Positions 4,590 to 21,984 of a stretch of DNA of 64,000 nucleotides are shown here, piece after piece. The first letter of the stretch is position 1; every line of letters starts with the position of its first letter. Source of the DNA: Desulfomicrobium sp. ZS1 (GTDB lineage: Bacteria; Desulfobacterota; Desulfovibrionia; Desulfovibrionales; Desulfomicrobiaceae); NCBI RefSeq assembly GCF_024204645.1, contig NZ_CP100351.1:620001-684000 (forward strand). The letters are read 5' to 3'. The position numbers were made by a program, and so were the translations under genes. Below the pieces are notes generated by a model, which saw nothing but the letters and a program-made list of their open reading frames with translations, was not told the origin of the DNA and ran no database searches.

Positions 4590-4628
4590 AAAAAAAGAAG
4601 GAGGCGGGAGACTTTTGTTTCCCGCCTC
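4590..4628 (-). terminator. Strong Rho-independent terminator closing an ORF-free transcript
   Basis: A 9-bp GC-rich stem (4601-4609 with 4620-4628) and a 10-base loop are followed on the minus strand by TTCTTTTTTT. No reading frame precedes it for more than 400 bases; the nearest minus-strand gene ends at 5049. It marks the 3' end of the candidate RNA at 4590-5015. Confidence 0.8.
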
Positions 4629-5015
4629 GCGTAAAACCGAGATGACTACATACCAAATGCGATGTGATTCCGGTCTGTTCGCCGGGCCGGTTCTGGGCCG
4701 GCGGTTGGCATCCATGTTGTCATTGTGACTGGAATAAACGCCTCTACAGTCTGTTACCTGTGTTACCTTGGGAGTTTCCTTCCAACGCGCCTTTCAACCA
4801 ACAATTTGTTTTTGGTTTCTGACCAACGCGCCTCTTTCTTCAAATCGAAAGATGTTCCCTAGGGATGTTTACAGCCGACACGCCTGCTTAGAGGTTTTTT
4901 CCTGATTTCCTTCCAACACGCCTCTGCGGTACAGATTTGGTTGTCGGTTTCTTTTGAACGCCACCTTGAGACATTGGAACCATTTTAAATCCGCATACGG
5001 CTGATTCTTGATTTC
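4590..5015 (-). ncRNA. Candidate structured small RNA with six repeated motifs
   Basis: This ORF-free stretch is bounded by a promoter-like sequence (5018-5045) and a strong terminator. On the minus strand the core GGCG recurs six times, with the complementary cores at 4959, 4919, 4881, 4829, 4788 and 4739, about 38-52 bases apart. Three copies share GGCG(C/T)GTTGG, and two of those continue AAGGAAA; other copies are more diverged. The segment also holds about nine GGA triplets, a feature of CsrA-sequestering RNAs, but no CsrA link is shown. It matches no RNA family I recognise. The neighbouring 4406-4589 is the upstream region of the zinc-ribbon gene with no other recognised element. Confidence 0.4.
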
Positions 5016-5017
5016 AG

Positions 5018-5045
5018 CTAGTACTGCAAAGCAAGCAAAAGTCAA
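5018..5045 (-). promoter_or_regulatory. Promoter-like sequence for the candidate RNA
   Basis: TTGACT (5040-5045) is followed after 16 bases by TACTAG (5018-5023) on the minus strand, right after the stop of the 62-residue gene. The -10 match is only partial (3 of 6). Confidence 0.35.
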
Positions 5046-5048
5046 GAC

Positions 5049-5237
5049 CTATTTCTTGCGCATCCTGTCGGCCATGATCTTGGTACCTGCGGCGAAGATG
5101 CCGCAGACGATGCCCATGAAAAAAGCCTTGACCGGCTCATAGCCGAACCAGCTGGCGATCATGCCGATGGAACCGCCGATGATGACTCCGCGCATGACGG
5201 CATGGCTTGGAGTGTTTTCATTTGATCTGTCGCTCAT
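5049..5237 (-). CDS. Small two-helix membrane protein, unknown function
   Basis: A 62-residue protein with a polar N-terminus, two hydrophobic segments (about 15-33 and 36-52) and a basic C-terminus (MADRMRKK). The composition suggests a helical hairpin in the inner membrane with positive ends inside. The ATG at 5237 has GAGGAAAA upstream. It starts 23 bases after the stop of the PEP-synthase-like gene and may be the last gene of that operon. No family was recognised. Confidence 0.65.
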   Translation of the reverse strand: MSDRSNENTPSHAVMRGVIIGGSIGMIASWFGYEPVKAFFMGIVCGIFAAGTKIMADRMRKK

Positions 5238-5260: not shown

Positions 5261-7924
5261 TCAGGCCGTGTTTTTTGCATCCATCATGGCGTGAAGCTGA
5301 TTCAGGATGCGTTTTTTGTAGAGTTGGACCACGTCTTCCCTGTTCATGATCATGTCCAGTTGCCGGGTATGGATGATGATATGTCCCAGGATCTCCAGAT
5401 GATTTTCGATGAATTTCTGGTCGCAGTCGTCCAGTCGGGCAAAGAGCGCATCTTCCCGGACCCGTGTCTGGAAATTGAACTCGTCAAGTATTTCTCCAAC
5501 GAATTGTGCTCTGCGGACTTTGCGCTGATGGTCCGCGGCCCCGCCTTTGAACTGAAAACGGATGTAGTTTTCTCGCGGCCGCGGCCCTGCCAGGGCTTCC
5601 ACGGAAGTGAAGTGATACCCGAACCTGGACTGCAGATTACAAAAGTGTTTCGAAATCATGAAATAGTTTTTTTCCGAGAACTGGGATGCCATGGCCGGTT
5701 CCAGGTTTCGGTTCGTCGCAGACTGGAAAAGCACTGACATGAAGCCTTTGCAGTCAATGCCGGGAGGACCTTCCCAGGGGTAGGCCACTATACCTCGCCA
5801 GAGCGCAAGCATGGGCACGGAGGTGATCTTGTCCAGCGGGATTGTTTTGTCGCCGGTATCATTTAGAAATCCGTCCTCAAGATTGATGATCCACCATTGC
5901 ATGGGCACGATGGTTTTGAGCTGCTTGCTCGATCTGGGAGAAAAATTGTGGTCGCGGCCGAAGCTGAACATCTCCTGCACGGATTTTTCATGGCAGAAGC
6001 GGGTTATGTCGTGCAGTGTCTTGCAGTTGGCCGGAGTGAAGTCGATGCCGTCGGGGTCGAGAAGCCCCAGTGGCGTGATGAAACGGTTTACATTCAGCAA
6101 GGTCCGAAAAACCGGGCTGCCTTCCATCATGTTCGGCCGCGTCGGGTTCCGGTCCAGCAATGCTTCCTGCAATCCTGCGTAAACGGCCCTGTTGTCGGCG
6201 TCGAGAGTGATCTCCTGACCGGCCTCAAGGATGCTTGTTGCGGAGTGAACGCCGAACAGCGCAGGCACATTGAATTCGCGGGCCACGTTGGCCAGATGGC
6301 CGGCCGCGCTGCCCTGTTCGGTGATGATGCCCTGACATCTGTTCAGGACGGCGGCCCATTTGGGTGTCGCCTCGACACAGACCAGGATCGCCTTTTCCGG
6401 AAGCACGAGAATGTCCACGTCCTTCTTGACGATATGCACAATTCCGTGGGCAGTGCCTGAGCTGGCCGTCTGCCCGTCCTGGACCAGGGGTTGTCCACCC
6501 GGTAGCAATTCCGGCGCAGGCTGGGTCTGGCGAATGTCCAGGGGCCGCGTTTGCAACAGGAACAAGCGACCTGCGGGAGTGTAGGCCCACTCGATGTCTT
6601 GGGGAGTCCCGTAGTGGGCTTCGATGCGAGAGGCCATGGCCGTGAGTTCGAAAATCTGAGCATCGTCCAGGGTCGGCAGTCCCACCAGTTCCGGATCGAC
6701 GGAAATTCTGCAAACGCCTTCGGTCCCGGAGCAGGCCAGGGCGGATTCCTTGCGCGGCACGGACCGTTCGACGATGCGGGGTGGGGCGCCTTTTTCGAGC
6801 AGGAATCGATCGGAAGTGGCGGTGCCATCGACCACGCCCTTGGCCATTCCCCAGGCCGAAGTGATTTGGAGGCGATTGTCCGCAGCGTCGAGCGGGTTGG
6901 ACGTGTACATGACCCCGCCCGCCTTCGAGGTGACCATGCTCAGGCATCCGACGCACATGAGTACGTCGTCGTCCCTGATGCCGAGCATGTAACGGTAGGT
7001 CATGGCGTGGGCCGAATACTTGCTGGCCACGACCTCCTTGTAGCCTTCCAGGAGGCTGTCCCGGTCCAGGTTCAAAAGCGAGCGGTGTTGCCCGGCAAAG
7101 GACGCGCCCGAGCTGTCCTCGCCCAGGGCGCTTGAGCGTAGCGCCACGTTGACCTGCCCGCCTTCGCGTGCGCAAAGGCGGTCGTAGGCGCAGAGGAGAG
7201 CCTCCTCCAGTTCCTTGGGCACCTCTGCCGCGAGGATCATGCCTCGGATCTTGGCGCACATCTCCAGCAGGGCGATGGGCTGGTCGGTTCCGTTATTTTC
7301 CGTCTCGTCTTCGTCATCGGCGGAGTATCCGGGGAGGGTGCAGGCGCCGAATTGTGAGGCCATGGGGTGCCCAAGCACGAGGCAGTTGATCTCGTCCCAA
7401 AGACTGTTCTGTTGCATGAAGACCATGTAGGCCTGCGCGGTGATGGCGAATCCGGCAGGAACAGGGATCTGCAGAGTGTTGCGAAGCTCACCCAGATTGG
7501 CCATTTTGCCGCCGACATCCTCCACGTCATGGGCGGTTATCCGGTCCAGGTCGAGCACAAGCTCCTGACGGCGGCTTGTCTGCTTGAGCGTGAGTTCCTG
7601 TTGAATCTGGTCCTGTATGGTGCGCAGGGCATCGCGCAGCCCCAGATATTTTCCAGGCGCGAGGTAGAGCAGGTTTTCCACGATATTGTAGACTTTGGCC
7701 GTGGCTCCCGTGGCCCTGGACCTGACGAAATGCATGCCGAAATGGAGATGCCCCTGGGCGGCCTCCTCCAGTTCCGTCATGAAGTCCAGCGCGCCGTTGT
7801 TCGCGGACAGGAGCCTGCGAAAGGCCTGATATCTGGCCCTGAAAAGGTCTTCCTGTTCGTTGTCCTGCTCTGTGGTCGGAGCTGGAGGGGAAAAGATGTT
7901 CTTGACGCGTTGGATCAGGTTCAT
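5261..7924 (-). CDS. PEP-synthase-like phosphotransferase with atypical C-terminal domain (copy 1)
   Basis: About 887 residues. Residues 130-465 form the ATP-binding domain of the pyruvate phosphate dikinase/PEP synthase family (GGKMANLGEL 138-147, RSSALGED 263-270, DIEWAY 443-448, LLQTRP 456-461). Residues 485-585 are the swivelling phosphohistidine domain, with the expected histidine at 543 in GSAAGHLANVARE. The usual C-terminal PEP/pyruvate TIM barrel is not recognisable. Instead, residues 600-887 form a region shared only with the adjacent paralogue at 8052. The N-terminal 120 residues are also extra. The final phosphate acceptor is therefore unclear. The start is set at ATG 7924, with GGAG nearby; the in-frame extension to 8029 lacks a ribosome site. 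It is downstream of a kinase gene, inferring one operon. Confidence 0.82.
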   Translation of the reverse strand: MNLIQRVKNIFSPPAPTTEQDNEQEDLFRARYQAFRRLLSANNGALDFMTELEEAAQGHLHFGMHFVRSRATGATAKVYNIVENLLYLAPGKYLGLRDALRTIQDQIQQELTLKQTSRRQELVLDLDRITAHDVEDVGGKMANLGELRNTLQIPVPAGFAITAQAYMVFMQQNSLWDEINCLVLGHPMASQFGACTLPGYSADDEDETENNGTDQPIALLEMCAKIRGMILAAEVPKELEEALLCAYDRLCAREGGQVNVALRSSALGEDSSGASFAGQHRSLLNLDRDSLLEGYKEVVASKYSAHAMTYRYMLGIRDDDVLMCVGCLSMVTSKAGGVMYTSNPLDAADNRLQITSAWGMAKGVVDGTATSDRFLLEKGAPPRIVERSVPRKESALACSGTEGVCRISVDPELVGLPTLDDAQIFELTAMASRIEAHYGTPQDIEWAYTPAGRLFLLQTRPLDIRQTQPAPELLPGGQPLVQDGQTASSGTAHGIVHIVKKDVDILVLPEKAILVCVEATPKWAAVLNRCQGIITEQGSAAGHLANVAREFNVPALFGVHSATSILEAGQEITLDADNRAVYAGLQEALLDRNPTRPNMMEGSPVFRTLLNVNRFITPLGLLDPDGIDFTPANCKTLHDITRFCHEKSVQEMFSFGRDHNFSPRSSKQLKTIVPMQWWIINLEDGFLNDTGDKTIPLDKITSVPMLALWRGIVAYPWEGPPGIDCKGFMSVLFQSATNRNLEPAMASQFSEKNYFMISKHFCNLQSRFGYHFTSVEALAGPRPRENYIRFQFKGGAADHQRKVRRAQFVGEILDEFNFQTRVREDALFARLDDCDQKFIENHLEILGHIIIHTRQLDMIMNREDVVQLYKKRILNQLHAMMDAKNTA

Positions 7925-8051
7925 GCGTGCTCCGCGATATCCGCCCAAAAGCTGGGCCGGGTACTCGTGTTGTGTAAACGAGTAGTGACACAGACCGGCG
8001 GGTCCAGGCAACCGGACAGGAACGCTCATTTCGGAGGGATGCGAAAAGTTA

Positions 8052-10568
8052 CTAGTGGCTGAAGGCGTAATCGCCGTTCATGAACGCATCCACGTACCTG
8101 GCGATTTCCGAGTCGTCGTCGAGCCGCCAATCCAAAGCTCGCACGGCGGCGAGCAGGCGTCCGAGCATGTCCAGGCGCTCCAGAAAACGGAGCTGGTCGT
8201 ACTTGCGGATTTCGGCCTTGAGCGAGTCTGCGCTCTGGATGACCCTGAACCCCTGGCGGCGCAGGATTCCGGCCAAAACCAGCGTCCGCCGGACTCGCTG
8301 CTCGTATTGCGCCGCCCCGCCCTTGAAGGAAAAGGTGATGTAGTTGTCGTTGATGACCGGTCCCGAATACGAGTCGATGGTGGCAAAGTGGTTGCCCAGG
8401 CGCCCGCTTAAATTGACGTAGGTGTCCGATACGACCGCATAGCAGGTGGGAACGGCCTGGTTTTTTGGGGTGCGTCCTGTAACTTCGGGAATCCGGGGAT
8501 GTCCCATGCCTTGGAGCAGGGCGATGAGGGGAGCGCAGCGCAGGTCGGCCAGATCAACCCAGGATGAATCGGCTTTTGAGGCGATGCCTCCTCCCAGATC
8601 AACCAGCAGGACGCGAAAGGGCAGAACTGCCCGCAATTCGCGGGCCACGCCGGTGTGCGGGGAGAGGTCGTCGGAGAGGCGAAACATCTCCTGCATGGCC
8701 ATTTCGTGCGCGAAACGGATGATGTCGTGCAGGCTGCGGCAGCCTTGCGCTGAAAACTCAGGAAGTTGCGGGTCCACCAGATGGAGGGGATTGATGAACT
8801 GCATGGCCTCCTGCAGCGATTTGTACACGGGGCTGCCCTTCATCAGGTTCACGGGTTTGCGCTTGGACAGGATTTCCGCGACCTGGCCGGCATAGACGAC
8901 CTGGTTGGTGGCATCGAGGGTGATTTCCATTCCGTGGGTCAGCAGAGCGGTGCCCGTGCCCGCACCGACCAGGGTCGGGATGCCGAACTCCCGCGCCACC
9001 GAGGCCATGTGACCGTTGGGGCTGCCCACATCGGTGATGATTCCCGCGACCTTGCCCATGGCCGCGACATAGGCCGGGGAAGTCTGCCGGGCCACCAGGA
9101 TGGCTCCCTGTGGAACGGCGCTCAGTTCATGGTCCGGCTCAACGATGTAGACCGGGCCCGAGGCGGCTCCGGGGGAGGCCGTTTGACCTCCGAACAGAAG
9201 CGGAGCCCGGCCCGGCACGAGTTTGCAGCATTCGGCCTGATTCAAGCCGCCGGCGCGTTGCAGGGGCCTAGCCTGAAGGATGATCAACTGGTCTTTTTGG
9301 TCCAGCGCCCATTCGATGTCCATGGGCATGCCGTAATGGGCTTCCAGGCGCAGGGCGTAATCCGCGAGGATGTCGACCTGCGCTGGCGTCAGGCTGGGCT
9401 GCTTCCGCAGTTCCTCCTGCACGGGCCTGGACACGATGCCGCCTTGGGCCAGCACGACGAATTGTTTTTTTTTGTCCGCGATGTGCGTGACAAGAATTTT
9501 CTTGTCCTCTCTGCGCACGCGCCAGAAGTCCACGTCCATGGAGCCGTCGACCACGCTGACTCCAAGGCCCCAGGCCGCCGCGAGCAGCAGGTCGTCGCTG
9601 TGGGCCGAGTTCGGATCGATGGTGTAGAGGACGCCGCTGGCTTTGGACTGGATCATGGTCAGGATCAGCACGCTCATCATTACGTCCTGCTCGGAATAGC
9701 CTTTGGTCCGGCGGTAGAACACCGCTCTGGTGGTGAAGGCGCTGGCAACGACGGCGCTCCAGGCCCGGCTCAAGGTCGCTGGGACGGCTCCGAGAACTGA
9801 GGCGTGCTGGCCGGCAAAGGATGCGTCCGAGTCCTCGCAGACAGCGGATGACCGAACGGCCAGGCGGACTTTCGGGCCGAAGCGGTTGATTATTTCCCGC
9901 GTCTTGTCCATCAAACCCTGTTCAAGGGCAGGAGGGAGCGGCGCGGTCATGATTCGCTCGCTGGCTTTGGCGCAGACCTTTTCCAGGGCCGCGATGTCCG
10001 ATAAATCCATTGCCGCCAGCTGATGTCGCAAGGTGTCGAGCAGGTCCGTCTGTTCCAGGAAGAGGGCGGCCGCCGAGGCCGTGACCGCAAAACCGGCCGG
10101 AGTCGGCAGGCCGATTTTGTTGCGGATTTCTCCCAGGTTCGCGGCCTTTCCTCCAACTTCCTCCAGGTCTTCCAAGGTGATCTCTTCAAGCGGCAGGATG
10201 AGAGTGGAGAAGTCGAAGGTTCTTTGCCGGGTCAGCGCATTCAAGGCGTTACCGGCGGCAGTTTCGATGCTTTCGAAAAGTTCGGGGAATTGACCATCGC
10301 ACAGGGCGTTCATGTCCTGCGCCAGATGACGGCAATGTTCCACCATGGCTTCGACCAGAGTCACGGCCTCTTCCTGGGTGAAGGATCCGCCTTCGTGGAT
10401 CATGCGCTCCAGGGACGTCATTTGTTCCAGAACGATGTTGTTGCGGGAAAGCAGATTTTTGAAAAACCGGTATTTTTGTTCCAGTTTCTGGCGGGCGTCG
10501 GGCGCATTCCCGGACAGTTTGGTGGCTGTTCGCTCCGTCATGTTCAAGCTTTCATCCTTCCTGGTCAC
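8052..10568 (-). CDS. PEP-synthase-like phosphotransferase with atypical C-terminal domain (copy 2)
   Basis: A paralogue of the preceding gene, 838 residues. The ATP-binding part (about 130-436) shows GGKAANLGEIRN, RSSAVCEDSDASFAGQH and DIEW. The phosphohistidine domain follows, with H520 in GSPNGHMASVAREFG. The C-terminal region (about 575-838) matches copy 1 in several blocks: GSPV, SLHDI.RF.HE, and F.FKGGAA...RVRR. As in copy 1, no PEP/pyruvate barrel is seen. The GTG start at 10568 overlaps the stop of the histidine kinase (GTGA), which argues for translational coupling. An ATG at 10541 is an alternative, with AAGGA somewhat far upstream. Its place behind a sensor kinase suggests the phosphotransfer is under two-component control (inference). 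Confidence 0.82.
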   Translation of the reverse strand: MTRKDESLNMTERTATKLSGNAPDARQKLEQKYRFFKNLLSRNNIVLEQMTSLERMIHEGGSFTQEEAVTLVEAMVEHCRHLAQDMNALCDGQFPELFESIETAAGNALNALTRQRTFDFSTLILPLEEITLEDLEEVGGKAANLGEIRNKIGLPTPAGFAVTASAAALFLEQTDLLDTLRHQLAAMDLSDIAALEKVCAKASERIMTAPLPPALEQGLMDKTREIINRFGPKVRLAVRSSAVCEDSDASFAGQHASVLGAVPATLSRAWSAVVASAFTTRAVFYRRTKGYSEQDVMMSVLILTMIQSKASGVLYTIDPNSAHSDDLLLAAAWGLGVSVVDGSMDVDFWRVRREDKKILVTHIADKKKQFVVLAQGGIVSRPVQEELRKQPSLTPAQVDILADYALRLEAHYGMPMDIEWALDQKDQLIILQARPLQRAGGLNQAECCKLVPGRAPLLFGGQTASPGAASGPVYIVEPDHELSAVPQGAILVARQTSPAYVAAMGKVAGIITDVGSPNGHMASVAREFGIPTLVGAGTGTALLTHGMEITLDATNQVVYAGQVAEILSKRKPVNLMKGSPVYKSLQEAMQFINPLHLVDPQLPEFSAQGCRSLHDIIRFAHEMAMQEMFRLSDDLSPHTGVARELRAVLPFRVLLVDLGGGIASKADSSWVDLADLRCAPLIALLQGMGHPRIPEVTGRTPKNQAVPTCYAVVSDTYVNLSGRLGNHFATIDSYSGPVINDNYITFSFKGGAAQYEQRVRRTLVLAGILRRQGFRVIQSADSLKAEIRKYDQLRFLERLDMLGRLLAAVRALDWRLDDDSEIARYVDAFMNGDYAFSH

Positions 10569-12247
10569 GCGGATATGGCCCGCGCTTCGAGGGGAAGGCG
10601 GACCGTGAAGGTTGACCCCCGGCCTGGACGACTTGCCGCGAAGACCTGCCCGCCGATGCGTTGCAGAATGCCGTGGCTGATGGACAAGCCGAGCCCTGCG
10701 CCCTTGCCTGGAGCCTTTGTGGTGAAAAACGGGTCGAAAATCTTGTGCATGTTTTCTTCGGGGATACCAAATCCCGTGTCTTCGACCTGCAGGCAGACGT
10801 CGCCGCCGTCATCGCGTTTCGTGCTGATGGTGATGCTGCCGCCTTCGGGCATGGCGTCCATGGCATTGTTGACCAGGTTGATAAGCAACTGGCGGAGCAA
10901 GGCCGGCTCGCTGAGAATGACAGGCAGGCCCGGTTCAAGTCTTTCGTGAATATCGATATTCTTTTGCGAAGCTTCGCGGCGGCGCAGGGTGGCGACGTCG
11001 GATACAAGGATATTGAGTTGCACGTCGCGGATGGTGCCGTCGGTTTTGCCGCCGAAACTGAGGAGCTTATGCGTGATTTCACGGCTTCGCGCGGTCTGCG
11101 CCACAATTTGGCGCAGGGCGTCCCGCAATTCTCCGGCATCGGGATGGTCCTTGAAGGATTCGCGCTTGAGCACGTCCTGCATCCAGCCCGCCTCCTCGCC
11201 GATGATGGCCAGGGGATTGTTGACCTCGTGGGCGATCCCCACGCCAAGCTGACTTATGGCGTCAAGTTTCCGGACCTGCATGTGATATTCGGCCAGTCGG
11301 GCCCGCTCCTGTTCCATAATTTCCTGCCATGCCAGTATTTTTTTGGTGGTGAGCAGCGCGGCGGCGGTGAGAATGGCCATCCCCAATATTCCGAAAAACA
11401 GGAAACGGACGGTTTGAACGTTGAGCGGCTCACGTAATTCCCGTTCGTCGCGCTGGACCACAAGCCGCCAGTCGGGGTTCCCGGCCACGGAGAGGATGCT
11501 GGACCATAGCATCGTTCCCCTCCATTCCCGCTTAGAAATAACGTCTTTGCGCGGCGCTGTCACGGTCAGGTCCGGGTCCACGCTGTCCAGGATTCCTCCG
11601 TGCAGCACGGATCTGGTTTGCAGGATACCTGCCTTGTTGATCAGGAAAACCTCTCCCGTGCGGCCGATCCTCTCTTTGTCCAGGAGGGCGCTGAACAGGA
11701 CCGCGTTCACGGACAGGCATGCGAGGCGACCGTGCGCATCGTTTCGCAACGGGGCTGCGATCTGAAAATTCGCGAGCCCGTCGGGCCCGGTGCGGATTTC
11801 CGTAATGACAAAGCCGGACGGCGTCCGCGTTCTGCCTGAAAGATCGGAGAGGGTGGGCTTGAGATCCCCAAGATCGGGGTGCCCGGCAACGGCGAGCTGT
11901 TCCCCGTCTTCTGTCGTTATGATGATGCCTTTCAGCCACGCCATGTCCTTGTGCCACGTTTCGTAAGCGTCTGCGAGTTCCGCTTCAAGATTTGTCCCGT
12001 TTTTCAAAGACGGTCCGAGTGCCTGCAACGCTTGCGCGGCTGCATGCAGTTCCCGCTCGACCCGTTCGCGGTATGTATTTGCAAACGTGTGGATTTCGGT
12101 TTCGTGCAGCGCTCGAAATTTTGTTTCCAGGGTCTTAAGTGCGTACGAAAAGATGCAGATAAAGATGAAAAACGTCGGCAGGAGCAGGTACATGGCGACC
12201 GTGTATTTCAGGCTTCGACTTTGTGATGAGCGTCCAGTGTCGAGCAT
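10565..12247 (-). CDS. Membrane sensor histidine kinase with Cache-like periplasmic domain
   Basis: A 560-residue two-component sensor. A first membrane helix lies at about 17-37. A periplasmic domain of double-Cache type spans 45-278, and a second helix lies at about 281-300. The dimerisation/phosphoacceptor helix has H340 in GIAHEVNNPLAII. The C-terminal HATPase domain shows NLVNNAMDAM, DTGFGIPEEN and GAGLGLSISHG. The ATG at 12247 has GGGGACAAC upstream. It overlaps the next gene (PEP-synthase-like copy 2) by 4 bases. The receiver protein at 12479-12922 is the likely partner. A mobile-type inverted-repeat element lies between the two, 24 bases ahead of this start. The ligand is unknown. Confidence 0.9.
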   Translation of the reverse strand: MLDTGRSSQSRSLKYTVAMYLLLPTFFIFICIFSYALKTLETKFRALHETEIHTFANTYRERVERELHAAAQALQALGPSLKNGTNLEAELADAYETWHKDMAWLKGIIITTEDGEQLAVAGHPDLGDLKPTLSDLSGRTRTPSGFVITEIRTGPDGLANFQIAAPLRNDAHGRLACLSVNAVLFSALLDKERIGRTGEVFLINKAGILQTRSVLHGGILDSVDPDLTVTAPRKDVISKREWRGTMLWSSILSVAGNPDWRLVVQRDERELREPLNVQTVRFLFFGILGMAILTAAALLTTKKILAWQEIMEQERARLAEYHMQVRKLDAISQLGVGIAHEVNNPLAIIGEEAGWMQDVLKRESFKDHPDAGELRDALRQIVAQTARSREITHKLLSFGGKTDGTIRDVQLNILVSDVATLRRREASQKNIDIHERLEPGLPVILSEPALLRQLLINLVNNAMDAMPEGGSITISTKRDDGGDVCLQVEDTGFGIPEENMHKIFDPFFTTKAPGKGAGLGLSISHGILQRIGGQVFAASRPGRGSTFTVRLPLEARAISA

Positions 12248-12270
12248 GTTGTCCCCTTTTATGAGGTCGT

Positions 12271-12359
12271 TGCAAAAAGTCGCGATTGAACCTGTGCGTC
12301 ATTCCCGCGAATGTGTGCCCAGCATGGGGAGGCGGGAATGCATTTAACGACTTTTTGCA
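12271..12359. repeat. MITE-like inverted repeat element, copy A
   Basis: An 89-bp element with perfect 12-bp ends (TGCAAAAAGTCG at 12271-12282, its complement at 12348-12359). A nested inverted repeat ATTCCCGC (12301-12308) / GCGGGAAT (12332-12339) lies inside. A related element is at 59652-59764, and the flanking TGACGCC is also shared. No coding capacity. Confidence 0.75.
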
Positions 12360-12403
12360 GTGACGCCCTGCATGCACCGGTGATGAGGAAAATTCTGGAA
12401 TGC

Positions 12404-12478: not shown

Positions 12479-12922
12479 CTACACCCATCTTTTCTGCAGC
12501 TTGTCGAGCAGGGCCTTTTCTTCGGCTTTGCGGAGCCTTTCGTCGCGATCTTTTTTGATCTTGTAGGCTTCCTGTATTTTGACCACAAGGTACTCGTACT
12601 CGCATGGCTTCATCAGGTAGTCATAGGCCCCGAGGCGCATGCCTTCCACCGCCGAAGATACATCTCCGTGGCCGGTGAGCATGATTACTTCCACGCTGAG
12701 GTGCTTGGCGCGGATTTCGGCCAGGGTTTCGATACCGCTCATTCCCGGCATCTGGATGTCAAGTATGGCCACATCGAATTTGTTGGTGGCGAGGCGGTCC
12801 AGCGCTTCCATGCCACTGGCTGCGCCGCTCACATTGTATCCGGTTTCCGTCAACCGCTTGGCCAGTGTTTCGCGAAAACGATCTTCGTCATCAATCAGAA
12901 GCAATCTTGGCAGATTATCCAT
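12479..12922 (-). CDS. Single-domain response regulator (receiver only)
   Basis: A 147-residue CheY-like receiver. The acidic pair D11-D12 and the phosphoacceptor D55 in VAILDIQMPG are present, as are the threonine in MLTGHG and the lysine in LMKPCEY. Residues 118-147 form a charged helix (KKDRDERLRKAEEKALL), not an output domain. It probably receives phosphate from the kinase at 10565-12247 and acts by protein contact. The ATG at 12922 has GGAGGATATA upstream. A 7-bp inverted repeat (12940-12960) lies just ahead of the ribosome site. Confidence 0.9.
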   Translation of the reverse strand: MDNLPRLLLIDDEDRFRETLAKRLTETGYNVSGAASGMEALDRLATNKFDVAILDIQMPGMSGIETLAEIRAKHLSVEVIMLTGHGDVSSAVEGMRLGAYDYLMKPCEYEYLVVKIQEAYKIKKDRDERLRKAEEKALLDKLQKRWV

Positions 12923-13069: not shown

Positions 13070-14536
13070 TTAGTTGAATCCGATCATCGGCCAGTAGACA
13101 AGGGCGGCGCCCACGCAGATGGCCAGCAGAGTGAGACACCAGGGAATGGCCACCTTGGAGAATTCGATCTGACTGAAGTAGCCGGTGCTGTAGGCGATGA
13201 TTGTCGGAGGGCAACCGATGACGAGCATGATGAAGGAGGTGGTCATGGGGGCGAGAAGACCGACGGTCTCGACGCTCATGTTCATCATGCTGGCCATGGG
13301 CAGGGTCACGGGCAAGCTCAGGGCCACGGCCGCGGAGTTGCTCATCATGCTCGACAGGGCCGAACCGAAGAAACCGATGCCGTAGTAGGTGACAAAGGGC
13401 GACTGGCCTTCCAGCAAAGGCAGGCAGACCGTAGCAAGGTATTTGCCGAGGCCGCTGGAAAGCATGGCCGCGCCGAGAGAGACGCCGGAACCGAAGACGA
13501 TCCAGGATTCCCAGGGAAACTTGTCACAGATGGTCTTGAAAGAGACCCAGCCGGGAGCGCAGAAGCCGGCCAGGGCCAGGGCCGCGACCACGCTGACGTG
13601 CCAGCCAGTCAGATCGCCGGCGAACCACAGGATGAATGCGGCGCTGAAGACTGCGGCCACGCCCTTTTCTGCATTGCTCATGGGCGGCATGGACTCGATC
13701 TTGACGGACGCGGGTAGTTCCTTTTCCTTGGGACGGAAGTAGAGGTAGCAGATGGCCCAGGTTGCCACCGCAGTTAAGATGGAAACCGGAAATTCGACCA
13801 TGGCGTACTTCAGGAAACCGATTTTGACTGCAACGCCGGTAGTCTCCAGAAGGTACTTCTGGGTGATGTCCACGGCCAGGGCGCAGCGACCGCCGCCGAG
13901 CATGGTACCGAAGCCGCCGGCCGAGGCGGCCAGAGGAATGAGGATGATGAAAAACTTGCTTAGGTTGTTGCTCTTTTTCGGGGTGATACCCATTCCTTGG
14001 AATAGGGGCAGGATGGCGAAGAGCATGATGATGGTGATGGTCGCGTCATGAAAGAGGGTCGAGAGCAGGGTGCTGCTCACGGCGATGAAGAAGCTGAGCT
14101 GCTTCACCTTTGTCCCCGCGAATTTCAGGATAAAGAAAAGCAGGCGCTTGGCCAGCCCGACCTCGTTCAGGATGACGCCGAACATGATGATCATCATGAC
14201 GAACATGACGGTGTGATTGGCATAGGGCGCCCAGGCCGCAGATGACTTGGTGACCTTAAAAATGATCATGAGCGCCGTAGCCAGAAGGGCGGTAACGCCA
14301 ATGGGAATGGCTTCGGATACCCAGAGGAACACGATCGGGAGCAGGATGGCGCCCAGACGATGTGCTTCCATCGGGAGAGACTCCGGACGGGGCAGGAAAT
14401 AAACGAAAAGAAACAAGCCAAGCGCGATCAGCAGCTTGATGACCATGACCTTGGTGGATTGGGTCGGACCTTGTGGCTCTTCTTCGTGCATGAGGAGCTC
14501 ATCTGGGGAAGTATCTCGCACGTCTTGTGCACTCAT
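13070..14536 (-). CDS. DASS/SLC13-family anion:sodium symporter
   Basis: A 488-residue inner-membrane protein with about 11-12 hydrophobic segments after a 28-residue polar N-terminus. It has the divalent anion:sodium symporter layout: VSEAIPIGVTALL near the start, a helical hairpin with HDATIT, and a second half with SNSAAVALSLPV followed by GCPPTIIAYSTG. Family members import sulfate or C4-dicarboxylates such as succinate and malate with sodium. The usual SNT motifs are altered here, so the substrate is not decided. The ATG at 14536 has GGAGAGAAT upstream. It is 67 bases behind the CBS gene, and both are probably driven by the sigma-54-type promoter at 15277-15293. Confidence 0.88.
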   Translation of the reverse strand: MSAQDVRDTSPDELLMHEEEPQGPTQSTKVMVIKLLIALGLFLFVYFLPRPESLPMEAHRLGAILLPIVFLWVSEAIPIGVTALLATALMIIFKVTKSSAAWAPYANHTVMFVMMIIMFGVILNEVGLAKRLLFFILKFAGTKVKQLSFFIAVSSTLLSTLFHDATITIIMLFAILPLFQGMGITPKKSNNLSKFFIILIPLAASAGGFGTMLGGGRCALAVDITQKYLLETTGVAVKIGFLKYAMVEFPVSILTAVATWAICYLYFRPKEKELPASVKIESMPPMSNAEKGVAAVFSAAFILWFAGDLTGWHVSVVAALALAGFCAPGWVSFKTICDKFPWESWIVFGSGVSLGAAMLSSGLGKYLATVCLPLLEGQSPFVTYYGIGFFGSALSSMMSNSAAVALSLPVTLPMASMMNMSVETVGLLAPMTTSFIMLVIGCPPTIIAYSTGYFSQIEFSKVAIPWCLTLLAICVGAALVYWPMIGFN

Positions 14537-14603: not shown

Positions 14604-15158
14604 TCAAAGGCCGCACGAGTCTTTGATTCTGCGACCGATTTCCTTGTACACGTCGGAAAAGCGCAAAAGGCCTATGAGCTTCTTGCCTTCCATGACGAAA
14701 AGAGAGTCATGCTTGAACATGACAAAGCGGTGGAAGGCATTGTTCAGGTTCGCGTCCAGATCAATGATCTGGGACGATTTCGGCGGCTGGATGAAATCTT
14801 TGACCAGGATGTCCTTGGCGGTGGTGCAGAGGTCATCGAGTGGCTTGGCCCACAGGGTGGTCTGCTCCTTCATGGGCTGGATCACGTAACTGAACTTTTC
14901 AACGTACACGCTGCTTTGCTCGTCGACCAGTTTTTCGTAGTCCGGTTCAAGTCCCCGGACCACGTCGAGGGGCGAGAGCTTGCCGACGACCTTGTTTTCA
15001 CTGTCGGTCACCAGCAGGATGCGCTGTTCACGCTTCCCGGAAAGGTATTCCTCGTTGGCCCGTTCCAGAGCCATGACCGCTCCCGAGAAAGTGGCCGTGT
15101 CCGAAATTCTGGGGAATTTGGCTATGGGAACCATAAAATCTTTTACGGATGCTTCCAT
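14604..15158 (-). CDS. Stand-alone CBS-domain-pair protein
   Basis: A 184-residue cytoplasmic protein made of two CBS motifs. The first starts at MEASVKDFMVPIAKFPRI and includes the strand VVGKLSPLDVVRGL. The second starts at DILVKDFIQPP and ends LIGLLRFSDVYKEIG. CBS pairs bind adenine nucleotides and often gate transporters or enzymes. It closely resembles the C-terminal half of the receiver-CBS protein at 22484-23386. The start is set at 15158, with AAGGAG 9 bases upstream; an in-frame extension to 15221 has no ribosome site. As it is immediately ahead of the DASS transporter, it may regulate that transporter (inference). Confidence 0.85.
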   Translation of the reverse strand: MEASVKDFMVPIAKFPRISDTATFSGAVMALERANEEYLSGKREQRILLVTDSENKVVGKLSPLDVVRGLEPDYEKLVDEQSSVYVEKFSYVIQPMKEQTTLWAKPLDDLCTTAKDILVKDFIQPPKSSQIIDLDANLNNAFHRFVMFKHDSLFVMEGKKLIGLLRFSDVYKEIGRRIKDSCGL

Positions 15159-15276
15159 TATCCATCGCTCCTTGGGGTTGGGCCGGAATTGAAGAGTGTG
15201 CACCATCTTCGCTTCCGGCACAGGGTTATTGCCGGTTTCAAGTCTTCAAATAATCTTGCAAACGTTGCGATGAGAT

Positions 15277-15527: not shown

Positions 15528-18056
15528 ATGGTCAAGCTGAAGCCCTTTTTGGAATGGTTGCCCCGGATATGGCGCGCCAGATCTGCGCCTGTCAGGCGCA
15601 AATTGAGGACGCGCCTGCTTGTGACGCTTATCCCCACTTCCCTCATAGTGCTCGCGCTGATGGGGTATGCGACCTATTGGGCTTCTTCGGAGTTCATCTC
15701 CCTCGCTCTTGAGCGCAATTCCCGGATTCATGCCGTGACCACCGCTTACGCGGTGGAAGCGCTGCTGGAACGTTGCAAGCGGAATCTGCTTTTTGCAGCT
15801 CGCAACCCGATGAACGCGGAGGGCGCGGCCGCTTATCTGAAGGATCTTCGAGAGCTTGAGGGTCTGGAGTTTGCGGAGTTTGGCTTCATGCCCCTGCGTG
15901 AAGGGGAGCCTGTCGTTTTTGTGAGCCGCGAAGGGGAAAGCAGGCGATTGGCGCAGGAGGAAGTGGATGGCATTCGGCCTGGTCCAGCGCTTTTGTATGA
16001 GCATGTTCGCGAGTTAAAAGCCGGAGAAGTCTGGCTGTCGGAGTTCGGGGAGGTGGAAACACCGTATCCAAGCGCTGAAAACCCGCGTGAACGTGTGTCC
16101 CGCGTGGCCTTGCGCATGGTGACGCCCTATGTGGGGCCTGCTGGAGAATTGGGCGGGTACGCCTATCTCTCTTTGAACGTTCAGGTGATTCGCAATGTTT
16201 TGTCTCTCTATGAATCATCCAATTCTCCCGTCTTCGCTTTCCCGCGCAATCCAAAGTTTCAACGTTACACCTTTTTTTTCGATGTCGACGGGTGGGCGCT
16301 ATTCCAATCGGAGTCGGAGCTTGATGATGACTCGCCTTTGCGGACCTTGAATATTCGTAAAACGCTATCCGGAACGCTTGGCAGGCCTGGTCTGCCCGAG
16401 GCGTTCCGTCCTTCGGAGCGGAACGAGAACTATTGGCGGACCGTCGAAGACGTCCGCAAGGGTCACAAAGATATTGTCCGCCCGCTCAAACGCATGGATT
16501 CCAGTTCGCCCTACAGTGAGCATTTTCTTGCCTACGCTCCGGTGCGCCTGGGCTTGGCGCCGGGTCAGGATGCAGCGGTCATCGGTGGGATCGCCTACGA
16601 GGACCGTAGCGTGCTGGTCGACCTTGCAGGATACAGGCACATCGATGTCATGCTCATCATCAGTGCCATCTCCGTGCTGGTTCTGGTGCTGGCCATCGCC
16701 TTGGTGGCCAGGGGGACCACGCTCGGCCTGCAGGAGCTCGCCTATGCGGTGAAGAATCTGACGGAAAAAGGAGAGTGGGAGGAGGTCCGCCTGGTCGAGA
16801 CGGGATACGAGGCAGAGATGCTCAAGGACTCGATCAATTCCATGATCAGGACGTTGCAGGCGCAGTTTGAGGAAATTAAATCAAAGGACCTCAAAATCGA
16901 ATCCGTGACCTTGAAAGAGCCTGTGGAGCTCAGCATGGGACCCGCCGCCTCCACGCTGGACGAGAGCTTTCCGGAACTTGTCGGAGCGGGGCCGTTCATG
17001 AAGCAGATGAAGCGGGACATCGTCAAAGCCAGTCAGGTTGAAGTGGACGTGCTTATCGAAGGCGAGACCGGCACGGGCAAGCAGTTGGCCGCCGAAGCCG
17101 TGCACCGTCTTTCCTCGCGAAGTGGCAAGCCGTTCATCTCCATCAATTGCGGTGAACTGGATGAAAATCTTCTGCTCGACTCCCTCTTCGGTCATGTCAA
17201 AGGCGCGTTCACGGACGGCAAGGGGGACCGGCGTGGTGCTTTTCTGCAGGCCGATGGCGGAACGCTCTTTCTGGACGAGATTCAGTCCGCATCCCTGAAG
17301 GTCCAGCAGGCCTTGTTGCGGGCTCTTTCCCTGCGCAAGATCAAACCGCTGGGCAGCGACCAGGATGTGGACGTGAACGTACGTCTGATCACGGCCACCA
17401 ATGTCGATTTGAAGGCCCTGATCGGCGCGGGGAAATTCCGGGAGGATCTTTATTACCGGCTCAAGGTCATCACCATCACGACCCCGTCGCTACGGGAGCA
17501 GCGACAGAACATCCCTCTTTTGGCCATGCATTTCTTGAAAGAGGGGGAGCACATGGCTGGAAGAACCGGCCTGGCCCTTTCACGCGGGGCCTTGAAAGCC
17601 CTGATTTCCTATGATTGGCCGGGCAACATCCGTGAACTCAAACACGTGATCATCACGGCGGCCGTTATGTCCGAGGGGCGGGTGATTCAGTCCGAGCAGC
17701 TCGGCATCAACGGCAAGGCGAGAAATGAGGACGAGGGGCAGGACGAGAGTGCGGATTCTTTTGCGCGGGAGAATGGGGAAGGTTTTGAAAATTCAATGCC
17801 TGCAAAATACGATAACGCGCAGAATGACGGCGGGTTGCCTCTTGACCTGAATTCCCGGCAGGTCATCGCATGCGAATATGTACGGGCGCATGGGAGCATT
17901 TCGAGCAAGGATCTGCTCGGTCTTTTGGACGGTGGAATTTCAAAGCGAACCGCGAGCTATGACCTTCAGGATCTGGTCAACCGGGGACTGTTGACCCGTG
18001 TCGGCCAGGGCCCTGCAACCCGCTATGTGCGTCCGGCCAATAACGGACGAAGTTAG
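15528..18056 (+). CDS. Membrane-bound sigma-54-dependent activator with Cache-like sensor and winged-helix C-terminus
   Basis: An 842-residue regulator. A membrane helix at about 29-51, a periplasmic sensor region (about 55-370), a second helix at 373-394 and a HAMP-like linker to about 445 come first. The AAA+ sigma-54 activation domain follows, with Walker A GETGTGK (512-518), Walker B GGTLFLDE (577-584) and FREDLYYRL near 640. The sigma-54 contact loop reads GAFTDG (559-564) instead of GAFTGA. The end (about 773-836) resembles a winged helix and not the usual Fis-type helix-turn-helix. No receiver domain is present, so it senses directly. The ATG at 15528 has GGGAGGGAGC upstream. It is divergent from the CBS-DASS operon, its probable target. 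Confidence 0.87.
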   Translation: MVKLKPFLEWLPRIWRARSAPVRRKLRTRLLVTLIPTSLIVLALMGYATYWASSEFISLALERNSRIHAVTTAYAVEALLERCKRNLLFAARNPMNAEGAAAYLKDLRELEGLEFAEFGFMPLREGEPVVFVSREGESRRLAQEEVDGIRPGPALLYEHVRELKAGEVWLSEFGEVETPYPSAENPRERVSRVALRMVTPYVGPAGELGGYAYLSLNVQVIRNVLSLYESSNSPVFAFPRNPKFQRYTFFFDVDGWALFQSESELDDDSPLRTLNIRKTLSGTLGRPGLPEAFRPSERNENYWRTVEDVRKGHKDIVRPLKRMDSSSPYSEHFLAYAPVRLGLAPGQDAAVIGGIAYEDRSVLVDLAGYRHIDVMLIISAISVLVLVLAIALVARGTTLGLQELAYAVKNLTEKGEWEEVRLVETGYEAEMLKDSINSMIRTLQAQFEEIKSKDLKIESVTLKEPVELSMGPAASTLDESFPELVGAGPFMKQMKRDIVKASQVEVDVLIEGETGTGKQLAAEAVHRLSSRSGKPFISINCGELDENLLLDSLFGHVKGAFTDGKGDRRGAFLQADGGTLFLDEIQSASLKVQQALLRALSLRKIKPLGSDQDVDVNVRLITATNVDLKALIGAGKFREDLYYRLKVITITTPSLREQRQNIPLLAMHFLKEGEHMAGRTGLALSRGALKALISYDWPGNIRELKHVIITAAVMSEGRVIQSEQLGINGKARNEDEGQDESADSFARENGEGFENSMPAKYDNAQNDGGLPLDLNSRQVIACEYVRAHGSISSKDLLGLLDGGISKRTASYDLQDLVNRGLLTRVGQGPATRYVRPANNGRS

Positions 18057-18193: not shown

Positions 18194-18233
18194 GTAACAA
18201 GGTTCGGCTGGAATTTTGATTGGGGGAACCGGT

Positions 18234-19892
18234 ATGTCAGGACTTGGTCTCAAAGGTCTCGGGGCAAAAATCGCCATAACCGCCCTGAGCTTTTCTCTGG
18301 TTCCGCTCATTGCCTTGGGCGTGACGATGTATTCCATGTTCGCCGCCACCTACAATTCCAAGGTTCAGACGAATCTGGCCACCCTCGCGGAAAACAAACG
18401 TCAGGGTATTGATCTTTTTTTGCGGGAACAGATTGCGCAGCTGCGCACACTGGCCTACTCCCACAGTGTCAAAGACCTCTCTTCTCCGGAGCTGTTGGAA
18501 AGCATTCTCGCCACCATGCAACTCAGTTCCAAGACGTTTATCGACCTCGGGTTGATAAACGAGGAGGGGGTGCATGTCAGTTATTCCGGACCCTACAATC
18601 TGTCCCATGCCAATTACAAGAATGAGAAGTGGTTCAATGAGGTCATGTTGCGCAAGGTCTACGTCTCCGACGTATTCGAAGGTTTTCGTGGCTTTCCGCA
18701 CATGGTCATCGCCGTGCAAAAACAGGAGAAGGGCAAGGTCTGGATTCTGAGGGCCACCATTGACTCCGATATTTTCGATTCCTTGGTGCGCTGGCTGCAA
18801 CTCGGGGATCTGGGTGATGCGTATCTTGTCAATCGTGCCGGGGATCTGCAGACCCGGCCCAGATTCGGCAACAAGAGCCGGGATATCTATGCGCCCCTGC
18901 TTGGCACGCCTTTTTCCGGAGCCAAGGTCATGCAGTACGAGGCCGATCAGAAAGAAATTTTCGTGGGCGGCATCTGGCTTGAGCAAAAGGAGTGGCTCCT
19001 GGTCATTGAAGAGGACAAGCGCGGAGAACTCCAGCCTCTTTTCAAGACGCGGATGGCGACATGGGGCGTTATGGGGGGTGGTTTCGTCGTGATCATCCTC
19101 GGCACCCTCATCATGACGCGTATGATCGTCGCCCAGCAGGAGAATGCGGGCAGACAGCAGGCGCAAATGAACGAGGAGTTGATCCAGTCCAGCAAAATGG
19201 CTGCCTTGGGCAAGCTTGCGGCCGGGGTGGCCCATGAGGTCAACAACCCACTCGCGGTCATTCGGGAGAAGGCCGGCTGGATGCGCGACCTGCTCGAAGA
19301 GGAGGATGTCAAGGCCAGCCCGAATTTTCAGGAGTTCGTGGATGCCGTGGACAAGATTGAGCAGCATGTCGAGCGGGCCGGCACGGTCGTGCATCGCATG
19401 CTTGGTTTTGCGCGGCGCATGGAGCCAGTCTGCAACGACCTTTATATCAACGACGTGCTGAAGCAGACCACCACTTTTCTCGAAAACGAAATCCGATTCA
19501 GAAATATCGAGTTGATCTGGGCGCTGAATCCAGACCTGCCGACCATTCAATCCGACGCCGCCCAGATCCAGCAGGTCATCCTCAATCTTTTCAATAACGC
19601 CATCGACGCCATAGGGCGCAATGGGCACATCACTGTGAAGACCGGATATGAAGCGGAAACGGATATGGTCAGCATTAGCCTCCGTGATGATGGTCCGGGC
19701 ATGGACAAGGAGGTGCAGCGGCGAATTTTCGACCCGTTCTACACCACCAAAAATGTGGGTAAGGGCACGGGCCTGGGCCTGTCCATCAGCTACTCGATCA
19801 TTAACAAGCTGGGGGGAAGCATCCGCTTCGAGTCCGAGGCTGGAAAGGGGACCGAGTTCATAATTCTTTTGCCGGTGAAACATCATGACTGA
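18234..19892 (+). CDS. Membrane sensor histidine kinase with Cache domain (second)
   Basis: A 552-residue sensor kinase. A membrane helix at about 11-35, a periplasmic double-Cache-type region (to about 275) and a second helix near 283-305 come first. The phosphoacceptor helix has LAAGVAHEVNNPLAVI, and the HATPase domain has NLFNNAIDAIG, DDGPGMDKEVQ and GTGLGLSISYS. The organisation resembles the kinase at 10565-12247, and EKAGWM after the histidine matches EEAGWM there. ATG 18234 has GGGGGAACC upstream; an earlier in-frame ATT codon is not needed. The next gene, a receiver, overlaps by 8 bases, so they form a cognate pair. Confidence 0.9.
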   Translation: MSGLGLKGLGAKIAITALSFSLVPLIALGVTMYSMFAATYNSKVQTNLATLAENKRQGIDLFLREQIAQLRTLAYSHSVKDLSSPELLESILATMQLSSKTFIDLGLINEEGVHVSYSGPYNLSHANYKNEKWFNEVMLRKVYVSDVFEGFRGFPHMVIAVQKQEKGKVWILRATIDSDIFDSLVRWLQLGDLGDAYLVNRAGDLQTRPRFGNKSRDIYAPLLGTPFSGAKVMQYEADQKEIFVGGIWLEQKEWLLVIEEDKRGELQPLFKTRMATWGVMGGGFVVIILGTLIMTRMIVAQQENAGRQQAQMNEELIQSSKMAALGKLAAGVAHEVNNPLAVIREKAGWMRDLLEEEDVKASPNFQEFVDAVDKIEQHVERAGTVVHRMLGFARRMEPVCNDLYINDVLKQTTTFLENEIRFRNIELIWALNPDLPTIQSDAAQIQQVILNLFNNAIDAIGRNGHITVKTGYEAETDMVSISLRDDGPGMDKEVQRRIFDPFYTTKNVGKGTGLGLSISYSIINKLGGSIRFESEAGKGTEFIILLPVKHHD

Positions 19893-20298
19893 AAAGACCG
19901 ACGTTCAAATTGCGCTCGTGCATGCAGGACCTTCCGTGCTGGTGGTCGATGACGAGCAGGATTTTGTGGAGACCCTGGTCAAACGCATGGAACGCAGGGG
20001 ATTCAAGGTCACTGGAGTCGGCAGCGGACAGGAGGCGCTGCTGCTGCTTGGAAAAGAGCATTTTGATGTGGTCATCCTCGATGTGATGATGCCGGGGATG
20101 GATGGAATAGAAACCTTGCGCGAAATCAAGCTTGCCTGGCCCAAGATCCAGGTCATCCTCCTTTCGGGACATGGCGGCGAAGAAATGGGAATACGCGGGA
20201 TGGCCTACGGGGCCTATGCCTATCTGCTCAAGCCCGTGGCCTTGAAGACAATCGTCGAGACGGCATACATCGCTTTTGAAGAAGCAGGGGTCCGCTAG
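19885..20298 (+). CDS. Single-domain response regulator
   Basis: A 137-residue CheY-like receiver with an N-terminal tail of about 15 residues. The acidic pair D22-D23, phosphoacceptor D66 in VVILDVMMPG, the serine in LLSGHGGEE and the lysine in YLLKPV are all present. No output domain follows. It overlaps the upstream kinase by 8 bases, which fits translational coupling and a direct phosphate relay. How the signal leaves the receiver is not visible; the CBS and PEP-synthase-like proteins are possible partners. Confidence 0.9.
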   Translation: MTEKTDVQIALVHAGPSVLVVDDEQDFVETLVKRMERRGFKVTGVGSGQEALLLLGKEHFDVVILDVMMPGMDGIETLREIKLAWPKIQVILLSGHGGEEMGIRGMAYGAYAYLLKPVALKTIVETAYIAFEEAGVR

Positions 20299-20307
20299 CG
20301 GTACGCC

Positions 20308-21984
20308 ATGCGCCAGTACACGCGACAAATCATAAAACGGAATTTTTTCGTGGCCATGTTACTGGCTCCGTTCATTCCCGTGTTGCTGGCTTTGGGAACG
20401 GGCGGGTATCTTTTCTGGAATCATGCCCAGCAAAGCGTTCTCGATACATTGACCCTGCTGTCTACGTACAATGCGCGCGTGGTGGATCGTTTTCTGGATG
20501 ACTTTTTGGGCGATCTGGCCATGGCCAGGGTCCAGCTGGAATATCCTGATTCCGCCGGATTGCGCTTCATTTTCGAGACGTTGGCCGTCAAACACAAGGG
20601 GCTTGTCGATGTCGCTCTCGTAAGCCCCAAGGGGCTGGTGCTGGCTTACGCGGGGCCAAGCGTCTACAAGGGAACTCACGTTGTGCCGGGACGATGGCTG
20701 GACGAAGCGTTGGAACGGGGCAGCAGCATCAGCAGCGTGGTATCCGGCCAAATGGGGCTTCCTCTGTGCATTGTGGCTTTGCGGGTCAACGCCGGCGATG
20801 AAATCGTTGTCATGCGAGCTTCTTTGGATCCGGCGGTTTTCACGAGCTTGTTCACGGTTGGACGCGGTGAGGGAATCGATCTGTTTCTCGTCAATCCTGA
20901 CGGGGAAGTCGTTGCCGGAAGCGGCGGACAGGTTCTGACCAGAGACCGGGCGCTGGTCGAGCATGTGTTCATGGAGCGTGTTGGTACGGCATTCCGGGAT
21001 TCACTTTCCGACGCCGCCTATGCAAGTACCGTCATGAGCCATGGTGGGTGGATCCTGGGCGCGCGTAAGCATTGCGGCACACTATTCAGCGCTGCCGATT
21101 CAACGCTGCTTTTTTTGGGAATGTCCCTGCTTTCCGGAGGCATCATTGTCCTTTTGTCGTCATTGTATCTGACTGGATATGTGGAGAAAATGCTGCGGCA
21201 GCGTGACGAAGAACGCGAAAAGCTGCGTGAGCAGCTGTATCGGGCCGGGCGTCTTGTCGAGCTGGGTGAAATGGCCGCCGGGTTTGCGCATGAGATCAAC
21301 AATCCTCTGCAAATCATGAAGAGCGACCAGGCCTATATCGAGATGCTGCTGCAGGATTTCAGGACCAGGGCTGGAGAAGACGCCGAGTTTCTTGGCGATG
21401 TGGACGAGATGGCCGCAAGCGTCAATCAGATCAAGCTTCAGATCGACCGTTGCGCGCGCATCACCCATTCGATTCTGAGTTTCGGACGGGCGGGCAAGTC
21501 CGAGGCGCAGAACATCGATGTGTCCAAATTTATTCCCGAAGTGCTGACCATGATTCAAAAAAAGATTCAGCTCAGCAACATTGCCCTGCGGGTCGATATT
21601 CCTCCAACGCGCCTGGTCGTGCACGTCGATCCTGCCCGGTTGCAGCAGGTTTTACTGAATCTGCTCAATAACGCCATGTACGCCATCAGCGAGATCGCCC
21701 ATGTCCGGCCTGGCGAAATCGGGCTGGCCTGTTTCGCCGAGAGCGCGGACACGGTCCGTATCGAAATCAGGGATAATGGCGCGGGCATTGGCGAAGAGCA
21801 GAAGACGCTGGTTTTCACGCCCTTCTACACCACCAAGCCGGCCGGCAGCGGGACAGGGTTGGGATTGTCGGTCTGTCACGGGATAGTCGAGAGCATGAAG
21901 GGCGTTTTGGATTTTACAAGCGTGAAGGGGCAGGGGTCGACTTTTTATCTCCTTTTGCCCAGAGTTCCGTCTTCCCTGGAGTGA
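20308..21984 (+). CDS. Membrane sensor histidine kinase (third)
   Basis: A 558-residue sensor kinase with a first membrane helix at about 12-35, a periplasmic sensor region to about 255 and a second helix near 268-290. A short coiled linker leads to the phosphoacceptor site in AAGFAHEINNPLQIM. The HATPase domain has NLLNNAMYAI, DNGAGIGEEQ and GTGLGLSVCHG. It begins 9 bases after the receiver gene and is followed by another receiver at 22064, so the region is probably one transcript. The ribosome site before ATG 20308 is weak (AGCGG). It is less like the other two kinases in the sensor region and may see a different ligand. Confidence 0.9.
   Translation: MRQYTRQIIKRNFFVAMLLAPFIPVLLALGTGGYLFWNHAQQSVLDTLTLLSTYNARVVDRFLDDFLGDLAMARVQLEYPDSAGLRFIFETLAVKHKGLVDVALVSPKGLVLAYAGPSVYKGTHVVPGRWLDEALERGSSISSVVSGQMGLPLCIVALRVNAGDEIVVMRASLDPAVFTSLFTVGRGEGIDLFLVNPDGEVVAGSGGQVLTRDRALVEHVFMERVGTAFRDSLSDAAYASTVMSHGGWILGARKHCGTLFSAADSTLLFLGMSLLSGGIIVLLSSLYLTGYVEKMLRQRDEEREKLREQLYRAGRLVELGEMAAGFAHEINNPLQIMKSDQAYIEMLLQDFRTRAGEDAEFLGDVDEMAASVNQIKLQIDRCARITHSILSFGRAGKSEAQNIDVSKFIPEVLTMIQKKIQLSNIALRVDIPPTRLVVHVDPARLQQVLLNLLNNAMYAISEIAHVRPGEIGLACFAESADTVRIEIRDNGAGIGEEQKTLVFTPFYTTKPAGSGTGLGLSVCHGIVESMKGVLDFTSVKGQGSTFYLLLPRVPSSLE

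Follow-up and report, generated by a model that had tools for sequence, protein, structure and literature searches.

Tandem PEP-synthase-like proteins with a C-terminal domain of unassigned fold are candidate phosphotransferases of oxyanion-sensing modules in sulfate-reducing bacteria

Dissimilatory sulfate reduction begins with the uptake of sulfate, a step whose control is poorly understood. The window analyzed in this study, a stretch of 64,000 nucleotides from Desulfomicrobium sp. ZS1 (contig NZ_CP100351.1), carries two adjacent genes, called A and B here, whose products resemble PEP synthase at the front and something else at the back. This locus raises the question of what a PEP-synthase-like protein might do with a C-terminal domain of another kind, and of how such a protein relates to the sensor and transporter genes that surround it.

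Both genes were proposed in a sequence-only reading of this DNA to encode PEP-synthase-like proteins with an ATP-binding domain and a phosphohistidine swivel domain, and they bear out that description. The two frames are present, and Pfam matches PPDK_N (PF01326; E values of 1e-83 for A and 8e-88 for B) and the PEP-utilizers mobile domain (PF00391; 8e-20 and 4e-22, respectively) in each product (Table 1). The frame of gene B is open from position 8029 (8029-5261), and its translation probably begins at the ATG at 7924, which yields a protein of 887 aa. The same scan that detected these domains found no Pfam domain in the C-terminal ~270 residues of A and B. Because the PEP/pyruvate barrel (PF02896) is readily matched in the true PEP synthase (E 4e-63) and PPDK (E 4e-44) of the same genome, each of which has the complete set of three domains, we regard its absence from A and B as real.

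Table 1. Features of the A/B locus and of the degenerate paralog D. Positions are those of the window unless another locus is named.
Feature	Position	Strand	Basis or remark
Gene A, PEP-synthase-like phosphotransferase (predicted) with novel C-terminal domain	8052..10568	-	838 aa; open frame and Pfam
A residues 23-115, N-terminal helical region, three long helices	10224..10502	-	Structure model; Pfam blank
A residues 120-440, ATP-grasp (PPDK_N) domain	9249..10211	-	K141, R239, E245, E419, Q432, R434 invariant, n=74
A residues 449-565, phosphohistidine swivel domain	8874..9224	-	Catalytic His520 codon 9011-9009
A residues 572-838, novel C-terminal domain	8055..8855	-	Conserved residues and model
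Gene B, anciently diverged second paralog	5261..7924	-	887 aa from ATG at 7924
B ATP-grasp (PPDK_N) domain	6524..7522	-	Pfam
B swivel domain	6191..6400	-	Catalytic His codon 6298-6296
B novel C-terminal domain	5279..6136	-	
Histidine kinase, periplasmic dCache-like sensor	10565..12247	-	Overlaps start of A
Receiver-only response regulator	12479..12922	-	147 aa, no output domain
DASS-family Na+:sulfate-type symporter	13070..14536	-	
CBS-domain protein	14604..15221	-	Relatives near family members in other genomes
Sigma54 activator	15528..18056	+	Full-length relatives adjoin family members at 8 further loci
62-aa membrane-like ORF downstream of B	5049..5237	-	Conserved in D. baculatum
Probable non-coding RNA downstream of B	4590..5030	-	Four 18-nt repeats (AGGCGYGTYGG...), terminator hairpin 4601-4628
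Copy D, degenerate paralog	L010:5324-7024; G000 ~793.3-795.0 kb	+	566 aa; keeps novel C-terminal domain

The earlier reading had also held that the C-terminal region is not the PEP/pyruvate barrel, and it had named a fold search for a diverged TIM barrel as the check. That search was conducted on the C-terminal domain with a negative outcome, and the other analyses agree with it. When the C-terminal domains of 79 diverse family members were compared with Pfam and NCBIfam profiles, only scattered chance matches were obtained, none of them meaningful, and PF02896 was found in none; a search against PDB sequences gave no match. AlphaFold modeling of this domain with 79 relatives yielded a confident structure (pLDDT 90.4, pTM 0.75), as did modeling of full-length A with 74 relatives (pLDDT 90.4, pTM 0.86). 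The domain is predicted to be an alpha+beta fold with a four-stranded stretch and no alternation of beta strands and alpha helices, and so it is not a (beta/alpha)8 barrel. Foldseek found nothing below an E value of 0.01 in the PDB (best E 0.013, TM 0.2); its best rows were pieces of the RecJ/Cdc45 C-terminal domain and of the AlaRS C-Ala domain, and a row for arginine kinase was weak (E 0.36). A VIA fold comparison reached a best Z of 7.1 over 78 residues, which is the level of unrelated models, and a viral structure library produced nothing under E 0.01. A TIM barrel was therefore rejected for the C-terminus, and the sequence and model data support the view that a novel alpha+beta domain has taken the place of the PEP/pyruvate barrel. 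Since the fold-search scores may merely reflect a common arrangement, we call this fold unassigned rather than proven new.

The front of the protein points to a conserved phosphotransfer chemistry. Residues 120-562 of A align structurally with PEP synthase (2ols) and with rifampin phosphotransferase (RPH; 5hv3) at a Z of 40.7 each; the match to 2ols spans residues 122-562 at 33% identity. A and B keep the full catalytic set of these two domains. Seven residues (K141, R239, E245, E419, Q432, R434, and H520) do not vary among the 74 aligned relatives, and D417 is present in 71 of the 74. We take these residues to correspond to the catalytic set of PPDK (K22, R92, D321, E323, Q335, R337, and H455), and PDB titles among the structure matches (K22A and R337A mutants) agree with two of these assignments. 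Such conservation strongly implies that the step from ATP to the swivel histidine is retained. As in PEP synthase and PPDK, the phosphohistidine swivel of A comes immediately after the ATP-grasp domain, and the catalytic residues are shared, whereas A and B carry the alpha+beta domain where those enzymes have the TIM barrel, and A has an extra N-terminal helical region.

RPH had been offered as a precedent for loss of the barrel. This analogy holds in part, because RPH and two-part dikinases such as HpeHI likewise keep the ATP-grasp domain and the histidine swivel while lacking the PEP barrel. It fails for domain order: RPH runs from ATP-grasp through the rifampin-binding domain to a C-terminal swivel, whereas A runs from ATP-grasp through the swivel to the new domain. 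Neither by sequence nor among the fold-search rows listed does the new domain resemble RPH, although a missing match is not proof of a different fold.

The search for relatives that the earlier reading had suggested revealed a large paralogous family. Its proposal that the GSPV, SLHDI.RF.HE, and FKGGAA blocks are shared only by A and B does not stand, as the genome carrying the window encodes two further copies (C and D) and hundreds occur in other genomes. The novel domain was found in 50 of 61 relatives, and a sample of 395 genomes from across the phylum had it in 146, often in three to seven copies per genome. Records with Acidobacteria, Nitrospirae, Thermodesulfovibrio, and Ignavibacteria in their titles contain it as well. 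Eleven of its residues (H614, D615, R618, H621, N742, F748, G750, G751, R761, D781, and D813) show no variation across the 74 aligned members; within the FKGG block, position 749 is lysine in 55 of the 74. A and B are old paralogs of different clades and not a recent duplication, and their tandem joins two subfamilies.

To place this distribution in a metabolic context, dsrA was scored over the 395 genomes with TIGR02064, and a strong match was required. Such a match is present in 139 of the 146 family-bearing genomes compared with 51 of the 249 others (Fisher p ~4e-53, a value that is overstated because it ignores shared ancestry, although the pattern is nonetheless plain). Five of the seven family-bearing genomes that lack dsrA are less than 81% complete. 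The family is found almost only in sulfate-respiring bacteria.

Coupling to a sensory kinase, noted previously for this operon, extends well beyond the locus. At 80 named loci, family genes lie beside Cache histidine kinases, receivers, TauE/SafE permeases, sigma54 activators, DSP phosphatases, CBS proteins, and PhnD-like binding proteins. A histidine kinase, response regulator, TauE, sigma54, DSP, or CBS gene occurs no more than two genes away from 59 of 85 family genes but from only 16 of 259 control genes, which were drawn from 40 stretches of 20 genomes and scored with the same profiles. These profiles were built from family loci and are therefore biased toward the family, yet the contrasts for TauE genes (22 versus 0) and DSP genes (10 versus 0) are still clear. 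Receiver-only regulators are among the commonest neighbors, lying within two genes of 25 of the 85 members. Several layouts recur, namely a sigma54 activator with a family gene, a family gene with DSP, PhnD, and histidine kinase genes, and a histidine kinase and response regulator with two family genes. In the phylogenetic tree, members with an adjacent DSP gene group with copy C in a clade of good support, and members labeled by a sigma54 neighbor do not cluster.

In the window, the genes on the minus strand follow the order CBS protein, DASS symporter, receiver, histidine kinase, A, B, 62-aa ORF, and a conserved RNA-like stretch, and the same block is present in D. baculatum. The orthologue of the DASS symporter is the only full-length DASS match in the latter genome, and we presume that it corresponds to locus tag Dbac_2041. 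A survey of sulfate transporters assigns one DASS protein to D. baculatum and, by citation, describes this species as dependent on sodium for taking up sulfate (PMC5840216). Taken together, these observations make the DASS protein of the window a likely sulfate symporter. Another family member of D. baculatum (G015:C1:2175224-2178352, minus strand) adjoins a 650-aa SLC13/DASS-like protein. Between the receiver and histidine kinase genes of the window, positions 12266-12364 hold a 17-nt inverted repeat with a 65-nt spacer; we rejected it as a multi-copy element because the genome contains only one copy of the arm.

A published fitness screen provides a genetic link to transport. The nitrate cluster of D. 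vulgaris and D. alaskensis comprises a TauE permease, a PtxB/PhnD-like protein, a histidine kinase, a receiver, the gene DVU0246/Dde_0604 (with reported PPDK_N and mobile domains), and a DSP phosphatase, and insertions in the permease, receiver, or PPDK-like gene permit growth in 100 mM nitrate (PMC4001038). The authors suggested a leaky thiosulfate transporter, and the DSP phosphatase mutant behaved differently between the two Desulfovibrio species (PMC4001038). The DSP clade and copy C have most of this gene set, and we liken DVU0246 to that clade on the basis of gene set and reported domains. Because copy C sits with DSP, histidine kinase, and PhnD genes and belongs to the DSP-adjacent clade, a family member is very probably needed for the transport phenotype of the nitrate cluster. 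A and B, in contrast, fall in other clades and sit with DASS, CBS, receiver, and histidine kinase genes, without DSP or PhnD. Downstream of copy C, at L009:4629-6219 (minus strand), a DSP phosphatase is fused to a CxxCxxCC-like cysteine-cluster region and is followed by a CheX-like phosphatase.

Copy D offers a view of what the C-terminal domain may need for its function. This paralog has no swivel and only half of an ATP-grasp domain. It occurs in at least 8 Desulfomicrobium genomes, has 566 aa in most species, and evolves under purifying selection (dN/dS ~0.15-0.20). In its C-terminal domain, R618, H621, H727, N742 (mostly to K), R810, and D813 are altered, whereas H614, D615, R723, R761, and D781 are kept. 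Since D lost these six residues jointly with the swivel, we nominate them as the acceptor site; the pattern suggests that they serve phosphate transfer and that the retained residues serve binding or the fold. The invariant residues and the conserved degenerate paralog together make this site open to mutational test.

Our best reading, to which we give about an even chance, is that A and B are ATP-to-histidine-to-acceptor phosphotransferases serving sulfate reducers as the effectors of modules that sense oxyanions. The ATP-grasp domain would phosphorylate the swivel histidine (H520 in A), and the swivel would then carry the phosphate to the C-terminal domain, where a small molecule or a partner protein would be bound as the acceptor. 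This acceptor would be a new substrate, as the sequence-only reading had also supposed. The enzymes would serve as effectors of modules built from a Cache histidine kinase and receiver, a sigma54 activator, or a dual-specificity phosphatase, and these sensory modules would switch or tune how sulfur oxyanions are taken up by DASS or TauE/SafE transporters. Within this proposal, we infer the phosphotransfer itself, the acceptor site, and the direct control of transport. Gene neighborhood need not equal direct mechanism, the C-terminal fold appears to have no functional analogue that could guide the assignment, and the nitrate-cluster mutants are transposon insertions, with possible polarity, in what is probably a subfamily other than those of A and B.

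The main rival has a small-molecule acceptor and purely transcriptional coupling. In this case the proteins would be ordinary metabolic enzymes, small-molecule kinases like RPH, HpeHI, or phenylphosphate synthase that act on a sulfur or carbon metabolite, and the sensors would regulate their expression only. We consider this a real though lesser possibility, given that the known barrel-less relatives are small-molecule dikinases (PMC4844700, PMC12167813), that the sigma54 activators beside the genes fit transcriptional control, and that several paralogs per genome would fit several substrates. However, the same invariant residues in all 74 C-terminal domains better fit one common acceptor, the neighbors are sensors and transporters and rarely enzymes, and the nitrate-cluster mutants phenocopy loss of the permease. 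The boldest alternative is a phosphorelay in which the swivel phosphohistidine gives phosphate to, or takes it from, the adjacent receiver-only regulators while the C-terminal domain docks. The frequency of such regulators next to family genes, the lack of an output domain in the receiver of the window, and the resemblance of the C-terminal domain to a specific binding module all lean this way; even so, a canonical histidine kinase that could serve the receiver is usually present, many members have no adjacent receiver, and we judge the relay unlikely.

Two further explanations fare worse. The retention of swivel-less copy D under selection implies that some functions of the family need no phosphotransfer, which would suit a catalytically idle scaffold that senses ATP or a ligand and signals by conformation; this is very unlikely, since all catalytic residues are invariant across the 74 full-length members. 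That A and B are diverged PEP synthases or PPDKs with a TIM barrel still in place is scarcely tenable. Their first two domains are indeed those of PEP synthase, but the barrel profile that is strong in the genome's own enzymes is absent from 79 members, and a confident model neither forms a barrel nor finds one.

Returning to the effector reading, one specific form of it would amount to an undescribed branch of bacterial signaling, in which the swivel phosphohistidine of PEP-synthase-type dikinases of sulfate respirers phosphorylates a signaling protein and thereby lets a Cache histidine kinase set the uptake of sulfur oxyanions. Candidate acceptors in such a branch would be the orphan receiver, the transporter, or one of the transporter's partners, the CBS protein or the small membrane protein. 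We regard this form, together with these acceptors, as doubtful. In the broader sense, a multi-copy family that tracks dsrA through the phylum, lies next to sensors and oxyanion transporters, and has a C-terminal domain of unassigned fold is a concrete candidate for uptake control, and it may be a missing part of that control in sulfate respirers. Since a known nitrate-resistance cluster contains such a gene, the family also has a bearing on souring control, through the resistance of sulfate reducers to nitrate. Our literature search returned no paper on the novel domain, and only the nitrate-cluster report (PMC4001038), a fitness screen in which the gene is poorly annotated, touches the family. 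The domain, its dsrA-linked distribution, the sensory linkage, and the degenerate paralog thus appear to be undescribed in the literature searched.

The sequence downstream of B is also conserved. The RNA-like stretch at 4590-5030 has a folding z of -3.6, shares 99% identity with its counterpart in D. baculatum, and is present in 10 of 16 genomes of the genus, mostly directly downstream of a family gene. Rfam gave no match on this stretch or on the operon, and consensus folding showed a compensatory change at only one pair, which leaves its structure a prediction. We consider it a probable unannotated non-coding RNA. Farther along the window, positions 22484-23386 (plus strand) encode a receiver fused to a CBS domain, which two more Cache histidine kinases (18216-19892 and 20308-21984) and a receiver (19885-20298) adjoin; this fusion and its neighbors may belong to the same signaling set as A and B.
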